NCBI GenBank assembly: GCA_017556145.1
Contig: JAFZCU010000054.1
Span: 1-56,884 of the forward strand
Length of the DNA stretch: 56,884 nt
Reading direction: 5' to 3'
Source of the DNA: Prevotella sp.
GTDB lineage: Bacteria > Bacteroidota > Bacteroidia > Bacteroidales > Bacteroidaceae
A program made the translations under genes and the position numbers. Shown in pieces: positions 41,917 to 48,665 of this stretch. Under the pieces are notes generated by a model that saw only the letters and a program-made list of their open reading frames with translations, searched no databases and was not told the DNA's origin. Each line of letters opens with the position of its first letter. Position 1 is the stretch's first letter.

Positions 41917-42678
41917 ATGAGTCAGAAGGCAATATTTATTGCGGGTCCCTGTGTGATAGAATCAGCTGAGTTGCTGGATACTGTTGCGCGCAAGTTGGTG
42001 GAAATCAACGGGAAGCATGGGACGGACATCATCTTCAAAGCATCATTCGACAAGGCCAATCGCACGTCGATACGCTCTTTCCGTGGTCCGGGATTGGAAC
42101 GCGGACTTCAATTATTGGCTGACATCAAAGCAAAATTCGGACTGCGGATTCTGACTGATATCCACGAAGCCTGGCAGGCAAAACCCGTGGGCGAGGTCTG
42201 CGACGTGATACAGATCCCCGCCTTCCTCTGCCGTCAGACAGACCTGTTGATAGCTGCTGCACAGACCGGTCGCATCGTGAACATCAAGAAGGCGCAGTTC
42301 CTAAGTGGTCGCGACATGCGCTATCCGGTGGAAAAGGCCCGGGATGCAGGCGCTAAGGACATCTGGCTCACCGAACGGGGTAATATGATGGGTTACAACA
42401 ATCTCGTAGTCGACTTCCGCAACATCCCTGACATGCTCGACATCGTGCCGACGGTCATCATGGACTGTACGCATAGTGTGCAGCGTCCCGGAGGCAGCGA
42501 TGGCAAGACAGGCGGCGACCGCCGCTTCGTGCCACAGATGGCGCTGGCTGCCAAGGCCTTTGGTGCCACAGGTTATTTCTTTGAAGTACACCCCACTCCT
42601 GACGAAGGACTGAGCGATGCGGCTAATATGCTGGAACTGGACAAACTGGAACAACTCATTGAAGAACTGATCAGATGA
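41917..42678 (+). CDS. kdsA: KdsA, 3-deoxy-8-phosphooctulonate synthase
   Basis: A 253-residue cytoplasmic enzyme condensing phosphoenolpyruvate with arabinose 5-phosphate in Kdo synthesis for lipopolysaccharide. Motifs: IAGPCVIES at the N-terminus, FKASFDKANRTS, FRGPGLERGL, TDIHE, PAFLCRQTDLL, and THSVQRPGG. Cys12 in the first motif marks the metal-dependent class II enzymes (as in Aquifex); the metal-independent E. coli type has Asn there. It overlaps kdsD by 4 bp, which supplies its substrate. Confidence 0.96.
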   Translation: MSQKAIFIAGPCVIESAELLDTVARKLVEINGKHGTDIIFKASFDKANRTSIRSFRGPGLERGLQLLADIKAKFGLRILTDIHEAWQAKPVGEVCDVIQIPAFLCRQTDLLIAAAQTGRIVNIKKAQFLSGRDMRYPVEKARDAGAKDIWLTERGNMMGYNNLVVDFRNIPDMLDIVPTVIMDCTHSVQRPGGSDGKTGGDRRFVPQMALAAKAFGATGYFFEVHPTPDEGLSDAANMLELDKLEQLIEELIR

Positions 42679-43628
42679 TGAAGGAATCAAGAGCATACGC
42701 CATACAATGCATGAAGGATGAGGCACAGGCCGTCCTGGGACTGATACCTCAGCTGGACGAGTCGTTCGACATGGCCGTCGACCTCATGTTTCATTGCAAG
42801 GGAAAGATCATCGTCACGGGTGTTGGCAAAAGCGGACATATCGGTGCAAAGATCGCAGCTACCCTCTCGAGCACAGGAACACCCTCGTTCTTCATCAATC
42901 CCCTCGACGTGTTCCACGGCGACCTGGGAGTGATGGCCCATGGCGATGTGGTGCTCGCCATCAGCAACTCCGGACAGACCGACGAACTGCTACGCTTCAT
43001 ACCGATGGTGCTACACATGGAGATACCGATCATCGGCATGAGTGGGAATCCGGCCTCCCTGCTCGCCAAATACTCCACCTGTCACCTGAATGTGAGCGTG
43101 GAGAAAGAGGCCTGCCCGCTGAACCTCGCCCCCACCAGTTCCACGATGGCACAGTTGGCCATGGGTGATGCCTTGGCAGTGGCACTGATCGAGAAGCGCA
43201 ACTTCCAGCCTCGCGACTTTGCGCAGTTCCATCCGGGTGGAGAACTGGGAAAGCGTCTGTTGACGACCGCCCAGGATGTGATGCGCAGCGACGACCTGCC
43301 GGTACTGCCGCCTGAGATGCACCTCGGCGAAGCCATCATCCTGGTGAGCAAAGGCAAGTTGGGCCTTGGAGTGGCAGAGGTAGATGGAAAGATCACAGGT
43401 CTGATTACTGACGGTGATATCCGTCGGGCCATGGAGAAATGGCAGGCGAAGTTCTTCGACCGTACCGTGAGCGATATCATGACACGTACCCCGAAGACCG
43501 TCAGACCTGAGACAAAGATCACGGAGATTCAGCAGATTATGAATAGATACAAGATACATTCCGTTCTGGTAACCGATGACAACCAGCATCTGCTTGGCGT
43601 CGTCGACCATTACTCCTGTATGTTATAA
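42675..43628 (+). CDS. kdsD: KdsD/KpsF-type D-arabinose 5-phosphate isomerase
   Basis: A 317-residue enzyme converting ribulose 5-phosphate to arabinose 5-phosphate for Kdo synthesis. An N-terminal SIS domain (GKIIVTGVGKSGHIGAKIAATLSSTGTPS, ISNSGQTDEL, NLAPTSSTMAQLAMGDALA) is followed by two CBS domains (about 205-317; GLITDGDIRRAME, SVLVTDDNQHLLGVVD). Length and layout match KpsF/KdsD. It begins within the kdsA stop (ATGA overlap). The regulator gene follows after 17 bp and may be on the same transcript. Confidence 0.95.
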   Translation: MMKESRAYAIQCMKDEAQAVLGLIPQLDESFDMAVDLMFHCKGKIIVTGVGKSGHIGAKIAATLSSTGTPSFFINPLDVFHGDLGVMAHGDVVLAISNSGQTDELLRFIPMVLHMEIPIIGMSGNPASLLAKYSTCHLNVSVEKEACPLNLAPTSSTMAQLAMGDALAVALIEKRNFQPRDFAQFHPGGELGKRLLTTAQDVMRSDDLPVLPPEMHLGEAIILVSKGKLGLGVAEVDGKITGLITDGDIRRAMEKWQAKFFDRTVSDIMTRTPKTVRPETKITEIQQIMNRYKIHSVLVTDDNQHLLGVVDHYSCML

Positions 43629-43645: not shown

Positions 43646-46600
43646 ATGAAGACTATAAGAAAACTGATTATCGTACTGCTGCTCACACTGCCGATGGCGG
43701 TGGTGGCAGACTATCTGTTTAAGACACTCGATGCACGCAACGGTCTGACAAGCAGCCAGATCAACTGCATCATGAAGGACTCACGCGGCTATGTGTGGTT
43801 TGGAACGCCTGCAGGACTGTACCGCTTCGACGGCTATGTCTTCAAGAACTTCCAGAGTGACTCACAGGATGGCTCCTCGCTGCCCAACAGTTACATCAAT
43901 GCGCTGCAGGAGACCCTCGATGGCAATCTGCTGGTAGAGACAGCGGCCGGCTATTGTGTGTATCACCCGCAGACAGAGAGCTTTGAACGCGACATGAAGC
44001 AGGTATTTGCCCGCATGGGTATTGAGACCATCCCCACCATCGTCTATGTCGACCGCCACAAGAACCTGTGGGGGGCGATTCCCAACAAAGGGGTGGTATG
44101 CTACAACATGCAGCAGCAACTGCTCTATGAGTTCGGCTATACCGACGATTCACACGGTGTACCACAAGGGGCCATCTGCTCCATCAGCGAGTGTAAGGAC
44201 GGCGCCTTGATCGTCTATGACGACGGACGGATCGTCTGCTGTGATGTCATGCACCAGCAGCACACGGTATGGGGCACCAACGAGATTGCCAACCGTAAAC
44301 TGCGCAGATCGAAGACCCTCAAGGCTTTTGCCGACCAGATGGACAACATCTGGCTATATGGTCAGGGTACCCTCTTCAAATATAACAAGAGTGCAGATAC
44401 CTGGGACACCTCCATCAGCGAACAGCTGGGACTGACGAGCGTGGGTGTCGACCGCAACATCAATGGCATGGCAGGCGACCGCAACGGTAACATCTGGATT
44501 GGTTCCGACCAGATGGGACTGCTGCGCTATGACATCAATACCCACGAGGTGGAGCCTGTACAGCCCGTCAACATGAACGACAGGCAGATGCGCCACGAGA
44601 CCATCAGCATACAGAGTGTCTATGTCGACGATACTGACCTGCTCTGGATTGGTACGGAGAAGTCGGGCATCGCCTATTCCGGTCAGTACATTTACCGTTT
44701 TGCCTCACTCATCAATGGCGATATCACAGCCATTGCCCAGTCTGACAGCGGAAAGGTGTGGTACGGCACCAGCGACAATGGTGTCATCGGCTATAATGGC
44801 CCACTCGCCAGTAAGAAGGTGTCTGCCATGGCATTCACCCCGGACGGAAGTCTATGGGTTGGCTCCAAGCGCAATGGTCTCACACGCATCAAAGACGGCA
44901 ATGCCACCATTTATTCACTGGCAAAGGACAGCATGAAGACCTTGATCGACGACCATGTCAATGCGCTTTGTACGGATAACATCGGCAACCTGTGGATTGC
45001 CACCAATGGCGGTTTGCAGGTCTACAATCCCAGAATGAACTCCTTCTCCTCCTATACCCGCGAGAATGGTAAGCTGAACACCAACAATGTCACTTGTCTG
45101 CATTATAACAAGGACAGTAAGAAGAACAACCTCTACATCGGTACTTCAGAAGGGCTGGTGGTACTCAACCTGTCCAATACCGAGAAACGGGTGCTCACCG
45201 GAAATGTCTCACACACCAAACAGTTCACTAACAACTATATTACCCAGATTGCCAAAGACTCCCGCGGACTCCTCTGGGTGGGTACGCGTGAAGGTCTGAA
45301 CGTGCTGAATTCCAACAATGACCTGAACAACGACAACCTCGACTATATCACCGAGAAACAGGGTCTTTGCAATAACAACATCTGCGGTATAGCCGAAGAC
45401 AAGAACCACAACATGTGGATCACCACCAGCAGTGGTGTCACCCGTATTGTGGTCAACCGCAGCCATGAGGACGGCAGCTATGCCTATGGCCTGTATAACT
45501 ACTCCACAGCAGATGGTCTGCAGAGCAATGAGTTCAACCCAGGTGCTATTCTGACCCGTCACGACGGTAATGTGGCGTTCGGTGGTCTCTTTGGTGTCAA
45601 CTGGATGCTCAAGAACGGCAACGCCGATACTGAGACGCTGCCCAGAGTGATGCTCACCCAGTTGTTCCTGGGCGAGGAGGAAGTACTGATAGGACATGAA
45701 TACGACGGCAAGGTGCTGTTGACGCAAGCCTTCAATGAAACCTCGAAATTGCAACTGAACCACAACCAGAACACGTTCACCATCAAGTTTGCCGCAGGCA
45801 ACTACAACCAGAGTGAGCGTCTGCAGTTCATGTACTGGATGGAAGGTCTCGACGATGACTGGAAAAACGGAAATGCCCTCACCCATGGTGTAACCTTCCG
45901 CGATCTGTCCAGTGGAAAATACACGCTCCATGTTAAGGCCGTCAGTACCGATGGTGCCGTCAGTAACCAGGAGCGTACCTTGTCTATCACGGTGGCCAGT
46001 CATTGGCTCCTCTCTTGGTGGATGCTGCTCGCCTATGCCATCATCATACTGGTGGCCGTCTATTTCTGGCGTATCGGTCTGAAACAGCTCAAGGCCATCA
46101 GAGACCGAAAGAGAGCAGTCATCCTAGAGCTGAAGATGCAACGCGAAGCCATCAAGGCTGCCAGCGATGACCTGCGCCAGCCGATGGCCCGTATGACATC
46201 CATCATCGGCAACCTCTCTGAGAAGGAGAAGGACCTCGAAGAGCGCGAGCAGCTCAATGCCCTTCACTCTCAGATGCTTCAGATTATCACGCGTGTGAGC
46301 GACATGCAGACCGAATTGGAGCATCCTGAGTTGAAAGCCAAGAATGCTGTCCACGACCGCATGGAACTGAATGCCAAGGGTGAGATTGTATTGCCTGATG
46401 TTCCCAGCGAGACACTGACCTCGGAACACACCAGGTCAAGGGCAGCCATGGACACCCCGACCATGAAGTTCTCAGTGTTCATGATCGACGACAGCGAAGA
46501 CTTCATCAAGTTCGCCATGGCACGACTCAAGTACGTCTACAACTTCCATGCCTATAACGATATCATCAAGGCAGCCACAGATATTGATGCCTTGCACCCC

Positions 46601-47440
46601 GACCTGGTCATCTGTAAGCAGAACATGGCGGGCATGACCGGTAGTGAGTTGTGTAACCAGCTGAAGATGAGTCCAATCTCACAGAAGATCAAGTTCGTCC
46701 TGCTCACCGACAAGGCCCTCACCCCGATCGACATGCGCAACCAGAACATCACCCTCTCTGCCGATGACTATCTCGCCAAGCCGTTCAACCTGCAGGAGGC
46801 CATCATGCGCTTCAACAAAGTGCTCGGCCTTGGTCCGATTGAGATCGACAGCGACCTGATTGAAGGGGCAGAGACGCGTATGCTGGAGAACCAGAACTCA
46901 AGTATGACCACTGCCACCGAGTCCTATGAGGATACCGACACTGCCACAGCATTGGCACAAGGCAGCGGAGTGACCAGCGAGGATGATCCCATCAATATCG
47001 TGGATACGAAAATCACGAGACCGAACATCCAGAATGCGCCTGCCGTCACCGGAACTCAGAATTTGGTTCAGGAGGAGTCGACCTTGTCCGACTACTCCAT
47101 GCTCGACATCATGGACCAGCAGCTGATGAAGAACATCGAACAGTATGTGATGCAGAACATGAGCCGTGGCCAGATCAGTCTCGAGGAGATGGCCACTGCC
47201 ATGGGCATGGGACGTGTACCCTTCTTCCATCGCATCCGTAACCTGACTGGCAAGACACCTGCCGAACTGATTCGCGACCTGCGTCTGAAACACGCCTGCA
47301 TTCTGTTGAAACGCACCAATATCAATATGAGTGAATTGGCCACGAACATCGGCTTCATGACTGCCGAGAACTTCATCACCATCTTCCGTGAGAAGTTTGG
47401 CATGACCCCGCTGGAATACCGGCTGAAGCATAGAAAGTGA
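43646..47440 (+). CDS. Propeller-sensor/AraC transmembrane regulator without a kinase domain (degenerate HTCS)
   Basis: A 1264-residue protein with the outline of a hybrid two-component system: signal sequence, two propeller domains of Reg_prop repeats (about 25-660; DSRGYVWFGT, GNIWIGSD, GNLWIATNGGL), a Y_Y_Y domain (about 705-783), one membrane helix (787-808), a receiver-like domain (942-1060) and an AraC helix-turn-helix (about 1165-1260). The kinase is missing. The dimerisation helix shows SDDLRQPM where SHELRTPL is expected (His replaced by Asp841), and only about 50 residues stand in place of the HATPase domain. In the receiver, D948/D949, T1021 and K1045 remain, but the phosphorylated Asp is Lys991. 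A linker of about 90 polar residues precedes the DNA-binding domain. No polysaccharide utilisation genes adjoin it; the targets are unknown. Confidence 0.85.
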   Translation: MKTIRKLIIVLLLTLPMAVVADYLFKTLDARNGLTSSQINCIMKDSRGYVWFGTPAGLYRFDGYVFKNFQSDSQDGSSLPNSYINALQETLDGNLLVETAAGYCVYHPQTESFERDMKQVFARMGIETIPTIVYVDRHKNLWGAIPNKGVVCYNMQQQLLYEFGYTDDSHGVPQGAICSISECKDGALIVYDDGRIVCCDVMHQQHTVWGTNEIANRKLRRSKTLKAFADQMDNIWLYGQGTLFKYNKSADTWDTSISEQLGLTSVGVDRNINGMAGDRNGNIWIGSDQMGLLRYDINTHEVEPVQPVNMNDRQMRHETISIQSVYVDDTDLLWIGTEKSGIAYSGQYIYRFASLINGDITAIAQSDSGKVWYGTSDNGVIGYNGPLASKKVSAMAFTPDGSLWVGSKRNGLTRIKDGNATIYSLAKDSMKTLIDDHVNALCTDNIGNLWIATNGGLQVYNPRMNSFSSYTRENGKLNTNNVTCLHYNKDSKKNNLYIGTSEGLVVLNLSNTEKRVLTGNVSHTKQFTNNYITQIAKDSRGLLWVGTREGLNVLNSNNDLNNDNLDYITEKQGLCNNNICGIAEDKNHNMWITTSSGVTRIVVNRSHEDGSYAYGLYNYSTADGLQSNEFNPGAILTRHDGNVAFGGLFGVNWMLKNGNADTETLPRVMLTQLFLGEEEVLIGHEYDGKVLLTQAFNETSKLQLNHNQNTFTIKFAAGNYNQSERLQFMYWMEGLDDDWKNGNALTHGVTFRDLSSGKYTLHVKAVSTDGAVSNQERTLSITVASHWLLSWWMLLAYAIIILVAVYFWRIGLKQLKAIRDRKRAVILELKMQREAIKAASDDLRQPMARMTSIIGNLSEKEKDLEEREQLNALHSQMLQIITRVSDMQTELEHPELKAKNAVHDRMELNAKGEIVLPDVPSETLTSEHTRSRAAMDTPTMKFSVFMIDDSEDFIKFAMARLKYVYNFHAYNDIIKAATDIDALHPDLVICKQNMAGMTGSELCNQLKMSPISQKIKFVLLTDKALTPIDMRNQNITLSADDYLAKPFNLQEAIMRFNKVLGLGPIEIDSDLIEGAETRMLENQNSSMTTATESYEDTDTATALAQGSGVTSEDDPINIVDTKITRPNIQNAPAVTGTQNLVQEESTLSDYSMLDIMDQQLMKNIEQYVMQNMSRGQISLEEMATAMGMGRVPFFHRIRNLTGKTPAELIRDLRLKHACILLKRTNINMSELATNIGFMTAENFITIFREKFGMTPLEYRLKHRK

Positions 47441-47444
47441 TTGT

Positions 47445-48665
47445 ATGAGTAGGCGTATTCTCTTACTTCTCACCTCGTACCTCTTACCGCTGACGCTTTC
47501 CGCCCAGACCAGCGACTCCCTCATCGTCCATCAGATGGAGGCCGAGGGCGTATACTTCACCCAGGGCAATCAGGTCAAGCTGCTGATGTCCGGCAAAGAC
47601 AAGTTTGCCGATATGTTTGATGCCATCCGACAGGCCAGAAGCAGTGTCCATCTGGAATACTTCAATTTCCGCAACGACTCCATAGCCTCGCTGCTCTTCG
47701 ACCTCCTCCGGGAGAAACGGAAGGAAGGTGTGGAGGTCAGGGCCATGTTTGATGGCTTTGGCAACGACTCCAACAACCAGCCGCTCAAGAAGTACCATCT
47801 GCGGAAACTATGGGCCGACAGCATCAACATCGTGGAATACGACCCCATCCGTTTTCCGTGGGTGAATCACATCTGGCCCCGTGACCATCGGAAGATTGTG
47901 GTCATCGACGGCGAGATTGCCTACACTGGGGGCATGAATGTAGCCGACTATTACATTGTCGGCACTGAACAGGTGGGCGAATGGCGGGATATGCACTGCC
48001 GTCTGGAAGGACCTGTAGTCAACGACCTCCAGACCATCTTTGCCCGCATCTGGAAGAAAGCCACGAAAGAGGATCTCTCCGATCCGAAATATTACCAGGG
48101 CAAACCTGCCGGCAACAAGATGGTCGGTATCGTCAACCGCGAACCTCATGTCACTAATACCATCATGCGTCGGCTCTATATCCAGGCCCTCGACAATGCC
48201 CAGGACTCCATCCGTATCATCAACCCCTACCTCACCCTGATACCGTCTGTCAGCAAAGCATTGAAACGGGCGCTCAAGCGAGGTGTCAAGATGGAGATCA
48301 TGGTGTCTGCCAAGAGCGACATCCCCCTCACCCCTGACGTGGTCTTCCGCAACGCCCATAAACTCATGAAGCGTGGTGCAACGGTCTGGCTCTATCAGCC
48401 CGGTTTCCATCATTCGAAGATCATGATGGTCGACGGTAGATTCTGTACTGTTGGCAGCACGAACCTCGATGCCCGCAGCATGCGGTTCGATTATGAGGAG
48501 AATGCGCTGATCATCAATCGTGCGACCACTAAGGAACTCGACGACATGTTCGACCGCGACAAGCAGAAGAGTGTCATGCTGACCGAAGAGGAATGGAAAC
48601 GCTTCCGCACAGGCTGGCAGAAGTTCCGTGGCTGGTTCGGAAGTCTCTTGCAGCCATGGCTTTAA
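47445..48665 (+). CDS. Phospholipase D family protein, cardiolipin synthase-like, with signal peptide
   Basis: A 406-residue protein with both HKD motifs of the phospholipase D superfamily: H148-K150-D155 (HRKIVVID) and H323-K325-D330 (HSKIMMVD), each followed by the usual GG/GS-N segments. The spacing fits bacterial cardiolipin synthases. The N-terminus, however, is a signal peptide (ending LSAQ at residue 21) rather than membrane helices, suggesting a periplasmic or surface-associated enzyme. The hydrophobic core of that signal is coded by a CTTAC/CTCAC-rich repeat tract. It starts 4 bp after the regulator and overlaps the acyltransferase by 10 bp. Confidence 0.85.
   Translation: MSRRILLLLTSYLLPLTLSAQTSDSLIVHQMEAEGVYFTQGNQVKLLMSGKDKFADMFDAIRQARSSVHLEYFNFRNDSIASLLFDLLREKRKEGVEVRAMFDGFGNDSNNQPLKKYHLRKLWADSINIVEYDPIRFPWVNHIWPRDHRKIVVIDGEIAYTGGMNVADYYIVGTEQVGEWRDMHCRLEGPVVNDLQTIFARIWKKATKEDLSDPKYYQGKPAGNKMVGIVNREPHVTNTIMRRLYIQALDNAQDSIRIINPYLTLIPSVSKALKRALKRGVKMEIMVSAKSDIPLTPDVVFRNAHKLMKRGATVWLYQPGFHHSKIMMVDGRFCTVGSTNLDARSMRFDYEENALIINRATTKELDDMFDRDKQKSVMLTEEEWKRFRTGWQKFRGWFGSLLQPWL

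Follow-up and report, generated by a model that had tools for sequence, protein, structure and literature searches.

A conserved transmembrane regulator of Prevotella, derived from hybrid two-component systems and probably free of their phosphorelay

Contig JAFZCU010000054.1 of a draft Prevotella sp. genome (assembly GCA_017556145.1; 82.7% complete, 5.0% contamination) was analyzed over its whole 56,884 nucleotides, referred to here as the window. An open frame of 1264 codons at 43646-47440 on the forward strand encodes a 1264-aa protein in which a propeller sensor, a membrane helix, a receiver fold and an AraC-type DNA-binding domain are retained, whereas the HATPase domain, the phospho-accepting His and the phospho-accepting Asp are gone. 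We interpret it as a conserved, phosphorelay-free one-component transcription regulator that spans the membrane, derives from a hybrid two-component system (HTCS) and would signal by conformation, and we give this interpretation a probability of roughly 0.7. The conformational or mechanical route itself is suggested by the anatomy of the protein and by the selection acting on it.

Domain architecture and loss of the phosphotransfer residues

A Pfam scan of the 1264-aa protein found Reg_prop repeats, Y_Y_Y at residues 719-783, Response_reg at 944-1052 (E 3.2e-11) and HTH_18 at 1182-1259 (E 1e-16); HisKA at 832-887 fell under the Pfam cut-off (E 0.0084), and HATPase_c gave no match. Kyte-Doolittle windows above 1.5 were confined to residues 1-28 and 783-813, which would place the propeller on the outer side of the inner membrane and the remainder of the chain on its inner side. 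The frame begins with a hydrophobic segment, either a signal peptide or an anchor (residues 1-25, 43646..43720; a Kyte-Doolittle peak), followed by the predicted periplasmic beta-propeller (about 26-718, 43721..45799), whose solved relatives in the PDB are the HTCS sensors 4a2l, 3v9f and 3ott, by the Y_Y_Y domain (45800..45994) and by one membrane helix (about 786-812, 46001..46081). The cytoplasmic part would comprise a DHp-like (HisKA-like) helical hairpin without a phospho-His (about 815-905, 46088..46360), the receiver (REC) fold (46475..46801), a conserved post-receiver motif, IEGxETRxLExxxSMTT (about 1072-1089, 46859..46912; alignment A1, 25 sequences), a variable linker, linker 2 (about 1096-1150, 46931..47095), and the AraC domain (47189..47422). 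Codons 841 (Asp, 46166..46168) and 991 (Lys, 46616..46618) stand at the positions of the phospho-His and the phospho-Asp, respectively.

When the cytoplasmic part of the 63 members of alignment A3, the window included, was searched at E up to 0.01, HATPase_c was found in none, HisKA weakly in 16 and generic coiled-coil models in 11. Hidden Markov models built for the family from 11-14 intact HTCSs returned REC and AraC without HisKA or HATPase in 81/81 members. Profile-profile alignment (hhalign) of the 81-member family with 14 intact HTCSs matched the receiver at 99.9% probability, with Lys991 on the phospho-Asp, and the hairpin more weakly (E 4e-5, probability 70%), with Asp841 on the H-box phospho-His; four wrong-domain controls reached at most 0.3%. 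Pfam and profile alignment therefore agree with the initial annotation, made from the sequence alone, that the HATPase domain is absent and that Asp841 and Lys991 occupy the two acceptor positions. Together with the Kyte-Doolittle analysis they also bear out its statement that sensor, membrane helix, receiver fold and AraC domain persist over a fully open frame, and the receiver fold is predicted to be intact.

The replacements run through the whole family. Position 991 is Lys in 81/81 aligned members and position 841 is D in 66 and E in 15, so the deletion and the lysine are shared by all of them (HATPase 0/81 with the HTCS-built model). Cys990, Cys1003, Asp948, Thr1021 and Lys1045 are equally invariant, Tyr1042 is present in 79/81, which preserves the Thr/Tyr switch pair, and position 949 carries D in 58, S in 15, N in 6 and T in 2. 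The earlier claim that every phosphotransfer part had been lost thus went slightly too far: it holds for HATPase, His and phospho-Asp, whereas D948, T1021, K1045 and Y1042 are kept. Because both canonical residues are absent in all 81 members, phosphotransfer through them is not possible. With its phospho-Asp replaced inside a receiver fold, which was assigned by profile, the domain qualifies as an aspartate-less receiver (ALR), for which an absence of phosphorylation in vitro would be expected.

Three core features of an HTCS, namely a HisKA domain with its phospho-His (sub-threshold HisKA; D or E at 841 in every member), HATPase_c (0/63 by Pfam) and the receiver phospho-Asp, were therefore not found, and the protein is not an HTCS by membership. 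The Reg_prop/Y_Y_Y periplasmic sensor with its membrane helix and the C-terminal AraC domain are present. What remains, a single chain with an extracytoplasmic sensor, a membrane helix, a cytoplasmic DNA-binding domain and no kinase, has the layout of a one-component system. Judged by its sequence, the protein is a transmembrane one-component regulator of HTCS origin whose receiver is of the aspartate-less kind.

A further feature of most HTCSs is an inhibitory contact between an S/CHIP motif of the receiver and a D and a K of the DNA-binding domain (PMC11253607). In the window family the receiver side of this latch is replaced, Pro having become Lys in 80/81 members against Pro in 43/43 intact relatives, whereas the DNA-binding side is retained (D1157 81/81; K/R1196 81/81; the register of D and K was derived by hand from the spacing in PMC11253607). 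A complete S/CHIP occurs in just 23/43 intact relatives, so part of the change may predate the window's clade. The contact between receiver and DNA-binding domain has possibly been re-made with opposite charges.

Approximate dN/dS values from 88 pairs were 0.043 for the sensor, 0.037 for the receiver, 0.009 for the H-box region and 0.019 for the AraC domain, against 0.152 for linker 2. These values indicate strong purifying selection on sensor, hairpin, receiver and AraC domain, and the constraint on the last three argues that all of them still matter.

Distribution, descent and separate losses of the kinase

The family was assembled from the best 80 of 226 related stretches in a contig scan. 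Each of the 80 loci has a long open frame that aligns with almost the entire protein (63-93% identity). They are titled Prevotella, Prevotellaceae or Xylanibacter, except L055 (Bacteroidales) and L021 (bacterium), and seven (L016, L018, L026, L027, L038, L052 and L063) are strain records with NZ_ accessions and no MAG (metagenome-assembled genome) label. An additional member, L110:6805-10830 in genome G261, has a longer receiver-AraC linker within a 1342-residue frame. In a profile search, 155/398 genomes of the genus (53/175 good ones) matched at E 1e-80 or better, residue 991 being read in only a few of the 155; of 301 sampled genomes of the family, 15 reached 1e-50. Since the HATPase-less form is conserved in so many genomes, it looks like a working switch rather than a broken gene.

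Sensor trees placed the window family nested among intact HTCSs, indicating that the regulator descends from an HTCS, as the initial annotation had proposed. The refuting observation that it had named, a close homologue retaining both HATPase and Asp, was not encountered; over the sensor, the closest intact HTCSs identified are about 30% identical. Relatives without HATPase occur in two further genera. In genus g14 (two genomes, L106 and L107) the His position is occupied by Gln or Glu and the phospho-Asp position by Glu; in L107 the PLD and TPR genes found beside the window gene are kept downstream, with one other gene in between, and in the L106/L120 genome two small genes, spanning about 2.4 kb, separate the relative from an intact HTCS, L120, which has a homologous sensor and carries H, HATPase and D. 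In genus g20 (8 genomes) there is no HisKA match, no HATPase and Ser at the phospho-Asp. The earlier suggestion of a recurring class is thus supported by these genera, by the 155 matching genomes and by kinase losses elsewhere.

Kinase and acceptor residues vary together in the propeller proteins with REC and AraC domains that we gathered by likeness to the window family and deduplicated on the last 250 residues; because these proteins are related to one another, their counts are not independent events. The 97 without HATPase have K (87), S (8) or E (2) and never D at the phospho-Asp position, and D is present in each of the 42 that have HATPase. An H-box pattern gave H in 41/44 HATPase-bearing proteins (no match in 2, L in 1; these were not inspected) and in 0/104 HATPase-less ones (D 71, E 17, Q 1, no match 15). 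A mixed profile (A2), searched with only a few candidates scored per genome, matched 56/301 family and 33/295 order genomes, mostly at the length of full HTCSs outside g1, g14 and g20.

In a 67-row sensor tree the HATPase label changes at least 4 times. A single clade of all 26 HATPase-less rows was rejected (p-AU 1.5e-8) in a test made on a quick tree after the 67-row tree had been inspected, and the kinase was lost separately in lineages other than the window's. The window's clade may share one loss with g14 and g20, the support being 67 for all three in the quick tree and 88 for the window's clade with g20 in a 38-row tree. The 67-row tree omitted 75/81 window-family members; second copies and truncated fetches (L081-L084, L091-L097, L101, L102, L105, L111-L116, L127, L129, L133-L136 and part of L106); and, of the rows retrieved, the long-branch or far ones (L089, L090, L117, L118, L124-L126, L170-L172 and L178-L185), among which L117 and L118 are HATPase-less.

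Several other propeller proteins lost the kinase independently and retain different remnants. L123 has a pseudo-DHp hairpin (EELRQP) fused directly to AraC with no receiver, and L143/L144 and L160/L161 pass from the membrane straight to AraC with neither kinase nor receiver match; L160 and L161 (family f24) are about 1010 aa long, with some 60 residues between sensor match and AraC domain. L206:6869-10147 and L207:6251-10219 come from two genomes of genus g25; visual comparison of their flanking genes puts them at one and the same locus, and their linkers look similar. L207 has HisKA, HATPase and AraC without a receiver, and L206 has AraC with neither kinase nor receiver, a pair that reads as stepwise loss of the phosphorelay.

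The window's own genome encodes two more kinase-less propeller proteins with an AraC-type domain and no receiver match, in frames of 1049 aa (L117:3589-6735, contig C196; next to a gene we take to be SusC-like) and 843 aa (L118:3545-6073, contig C101). It also encodes L119:4849-8052 (contig C168), a 1068-aa protein in which propeller, Y_Y_Y and HATPase_c were found but no match to HisKA, receiver or AraC; it is complementary to the window gene in what it has kept. Neighbors of L106, L107, L109, L117, L119 and L120 presumably encode MutS2, an aquaporin, a sugar transporter, a beta-galactosidase and SusC.

Gene neighborhood

On the same strand, the regulator gene follows kdsA, for 3-deoxy-8-phosphooctulonate synthase (41917..42678; NCBIfam, above cut-off), and kdsD, for a sugar-phosphate isomerase of the KpsF/GutQ family (42675..43628; subfamily above cut-off), which ends 17 bases upstream in what is likely one operon. 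Four bases downstream begins a PLD-family, cardiolipin-synthase-like gene (47445..48665), named from synteny and a match below the equivalog cut-off. At the other loci, the flanks were screened solely for homologues of the genes that adjoin the regulator in the window. Among 81 loci (the 80 from the scan plus L110), kdsD of Kdo synthesis immediately precedes the regulator gene in all, the PLD gene is present in all and kdsA in 79; the kdsD-regulator gap ranges from -4 to 91 across the 80 loci, for which start codons were assigned by a script. At four loci from other genera, kdsD is absent from that place. In eight regulator-less genomes of the genus, the PLD gene directly follows kdsD in 7, with no gene remnant seen, and in the eighth (L202) kdsD has no PLD gene after it. 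At L197:3823-5162 (genome G017) the PLD gene after kdsD is split into two overlapping frames, possibly by a frameshift or a sequencing error.

The six window neighbors that were scanned encode an MscS-type channel, KdsA, KdsD, the PLD protein, an acyltransferase and a TPR protein; none is SusC/SusD, a glycoside hydrolase, a kinase or an HTCS. From its likely kdsA-kdsD operon position the regulator may report on the envelope or a periplasmic glycan in this genus and is perhaps no classical switch of a polysaccharide locus; gene position alone suggests a role in envelope or Kdo control.

Mechanism, alternatives and relation to known systems

In the conformational mechanism that we favor, two propeller sensors would dimerize in the periplasm and bind a ligand, probably a glycan. 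Along the membrane helix, the altered sensor geometry would reach the retained DHp-like hairpin; with no phosphate to handle, this hairpin would still pair and move both chains. The receiver would have become a fixed, aspartate-less domain, in which Lys991 probably substitutes for metal and phosphate in the acidic pocket next to Asp948, and would serve as a rigid adaptor or dimer surface linking the hairpin to the AraC domain. At the membrane, the paired AraC domains would in turn bind direct-repeat DNA or let it go.

Several observations weigh against this mechanism. Lys991 could instead mean a locked, signal-blind receiver, and a trans-acting kinase, or modification at a residue other than the canonical two, is a possible source of phosphotransfer. 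The weak HisKA match, with coiled-coil models matching some members, makes the hairpin geometry uncertain, and dS is close to 1, which is why the dN/dS values are approximate. No operator was evident upstream of kdsA in 77 loci or of mscS in 58, only conserved blocks resembling promoters by the Bacteroidetes promoter motif. Finally, among 41 near-complete genomes of the genus, proteins of L119 size (full-profile matches in frames of 1032-1069 aa, our own cut-off, sequences not inspected) occur in 8/20 with the regulator and 0/21 without it, which leaves a helper role open.

That co-occurrence and the L119 architecture are what favor phosphotransfer in trans, from a separate HATPase-bearing propeller protein or another kinase, or through a modified residue besides 841 and 991, for which the invariant Cys990 and Cys1003 would be available. 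In a first sample, 4/4 regulator genomes also had a propeller protein of 1061-1095 aa, although that of G015 (L123) is not of the L119 type. In the larger search, G091 and G092, both with the regulator, matched over the sensor half only, and G261 (with it) and G016, G036, G294 and G328 (without it) matched frames as long as full HTCSs (1377-1408 aa). An obligatory HATPase partner of the L119 type was rejected, because 12/20 regulator-bearing genomes have no match of that size. With both canonical acceptors missing in every member, no kinase among the scanned window neighbors and no HisKA match in L119 itself, we regard phosphotransfer in trans as unlikely in general.

We consider it slightly less likely again that the protein is a decoy, which would heterodimerize with an intact HTCS paralogue, or compete for its sites, and so dampen it. 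The proximity of the g14 relative to L120 fits such a role, as does BT2391, an HTCS with a deviant latch motif that represses its own locus (PMC11253607). However, the scanned window neighbors include no HTCS, and the AraC domain is far from those of two HTCSs in the same genome (34% and 30% identity; L124 and L126). Still more doubtful is a constitutive DNA-binding protein that senses nothing and keeps its sensor as a mere membrane anchor. A Lys in place of the phospho-Asp could hold the receiver in a single state, and the receiver side of the inhibitory latch is gone; yet the sensor is constrained almost as strongly as the receiver, and drift would be expected in some 780 residues that did nothing but anchor the protein. 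Decay, a recent local deletion or an assembly error at 46100-46700 can be dismissed, since loss of catalytic parts, the expected look of decay in one genome, recurs at 80 further near full-length loci including the seven strain records, under purifying selection, and with no remnant between kdsD and the PLD gene in 7/8 regulator-less genomes.

The window protein shares its domain order with the propeller/Y_Y_Y HTCSs such as BT4124 and BT4663 (PMC11253607, PMC3243724), with significant homology in sensor, receiver and AraC domain. It differs from them in lacking HATPase and phospho-His, in having Lys for the phospho-Asp, in the replaced receiver side of the latch, and in that its six scanned neighbors are not sugar-utilization genes. 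A hint that an HTCS can lack its phospho-His comes from BT4236, which has Gln at the His position and for which a phosphorylation-independent mechanism was suggested (PMC11253607). That account, however, concerns one protein and its His only, whereas the window clade has lost HATPase, His and Asp across many genomes. In the open-access literature, with most subscription journals outside our scope, we found no description of a HATPase-less HTCS class.

ALR domains mostly retain the first acidic residue and the pocket Lys, and it has been proposed that a basic side chain in the pocket stands in for the metal (PMC4395418). Similar to ALRs such as RitR, the window family has a replaced phospho-Asp and keeps the first acidic residue, the pocket Lys and the Thr/Tyr switch. 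Lys is nevertheless rare as a substitution (Lys, Arg and His together make up 4% in PMC4395418), and the domain sits here in a membrane-spanning propeller protein. The protein would also resemble the transmembrane transcription regulators (TTRs), for example Rsp of Neisseria, in acting on DNA from the membrane as a one-component system (PMC10269533). According to that paper, TTRs may have evolved from two-component systems, 7.7% of them carry Y_Y_Y, and "hybrid TTRs" with kinase or receiver domains have been reported; its main text contains neither the word propeller nor AraC, and its tables may list such proteins. What sets the window protein apart from TTRs is that intermediates and separate losses can be traced within one family. 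SusR of Bacteroides, a glycan regulator treated as a separate family in PMC3878776, likewise spans the membrane with a periplasmic sensor and a cytoplasmic DNA-binding domain, and is set beside the window protein by description only.

On a bolder reading, which we hold to be less likely than not, HTCSs may repeatedly have given up the phosphorelay and turned into mechanical switches across the membrane. The receiver of this Prevotella clade would then be an allosteric adaptor of reversed charge, with Lys for the phospho-Asp and a new receiver-AraC contact, and the switch would have moved from polysaccharide use to a Kdo/envelope operon, linking a periplasmic glycan signal to outer-membrane synthesis.

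The family raises the question of whether DNA binding can be driven, in the absence of phosphate, by a sensor that was built to feed a phosphorelay. It belongs to a natural series that runs from intact HTCSs, through proteins with the kinase kept and the receiver lost or with the kinase lost and the receiver kept with K, E or S, to proteins that have lost both. Comparing this series would separate the mechanical from the chemical parts of HTCS signaling and would guide sensor engineering, and calling such proteins hybrid two-component systems can mislead on mechanism.

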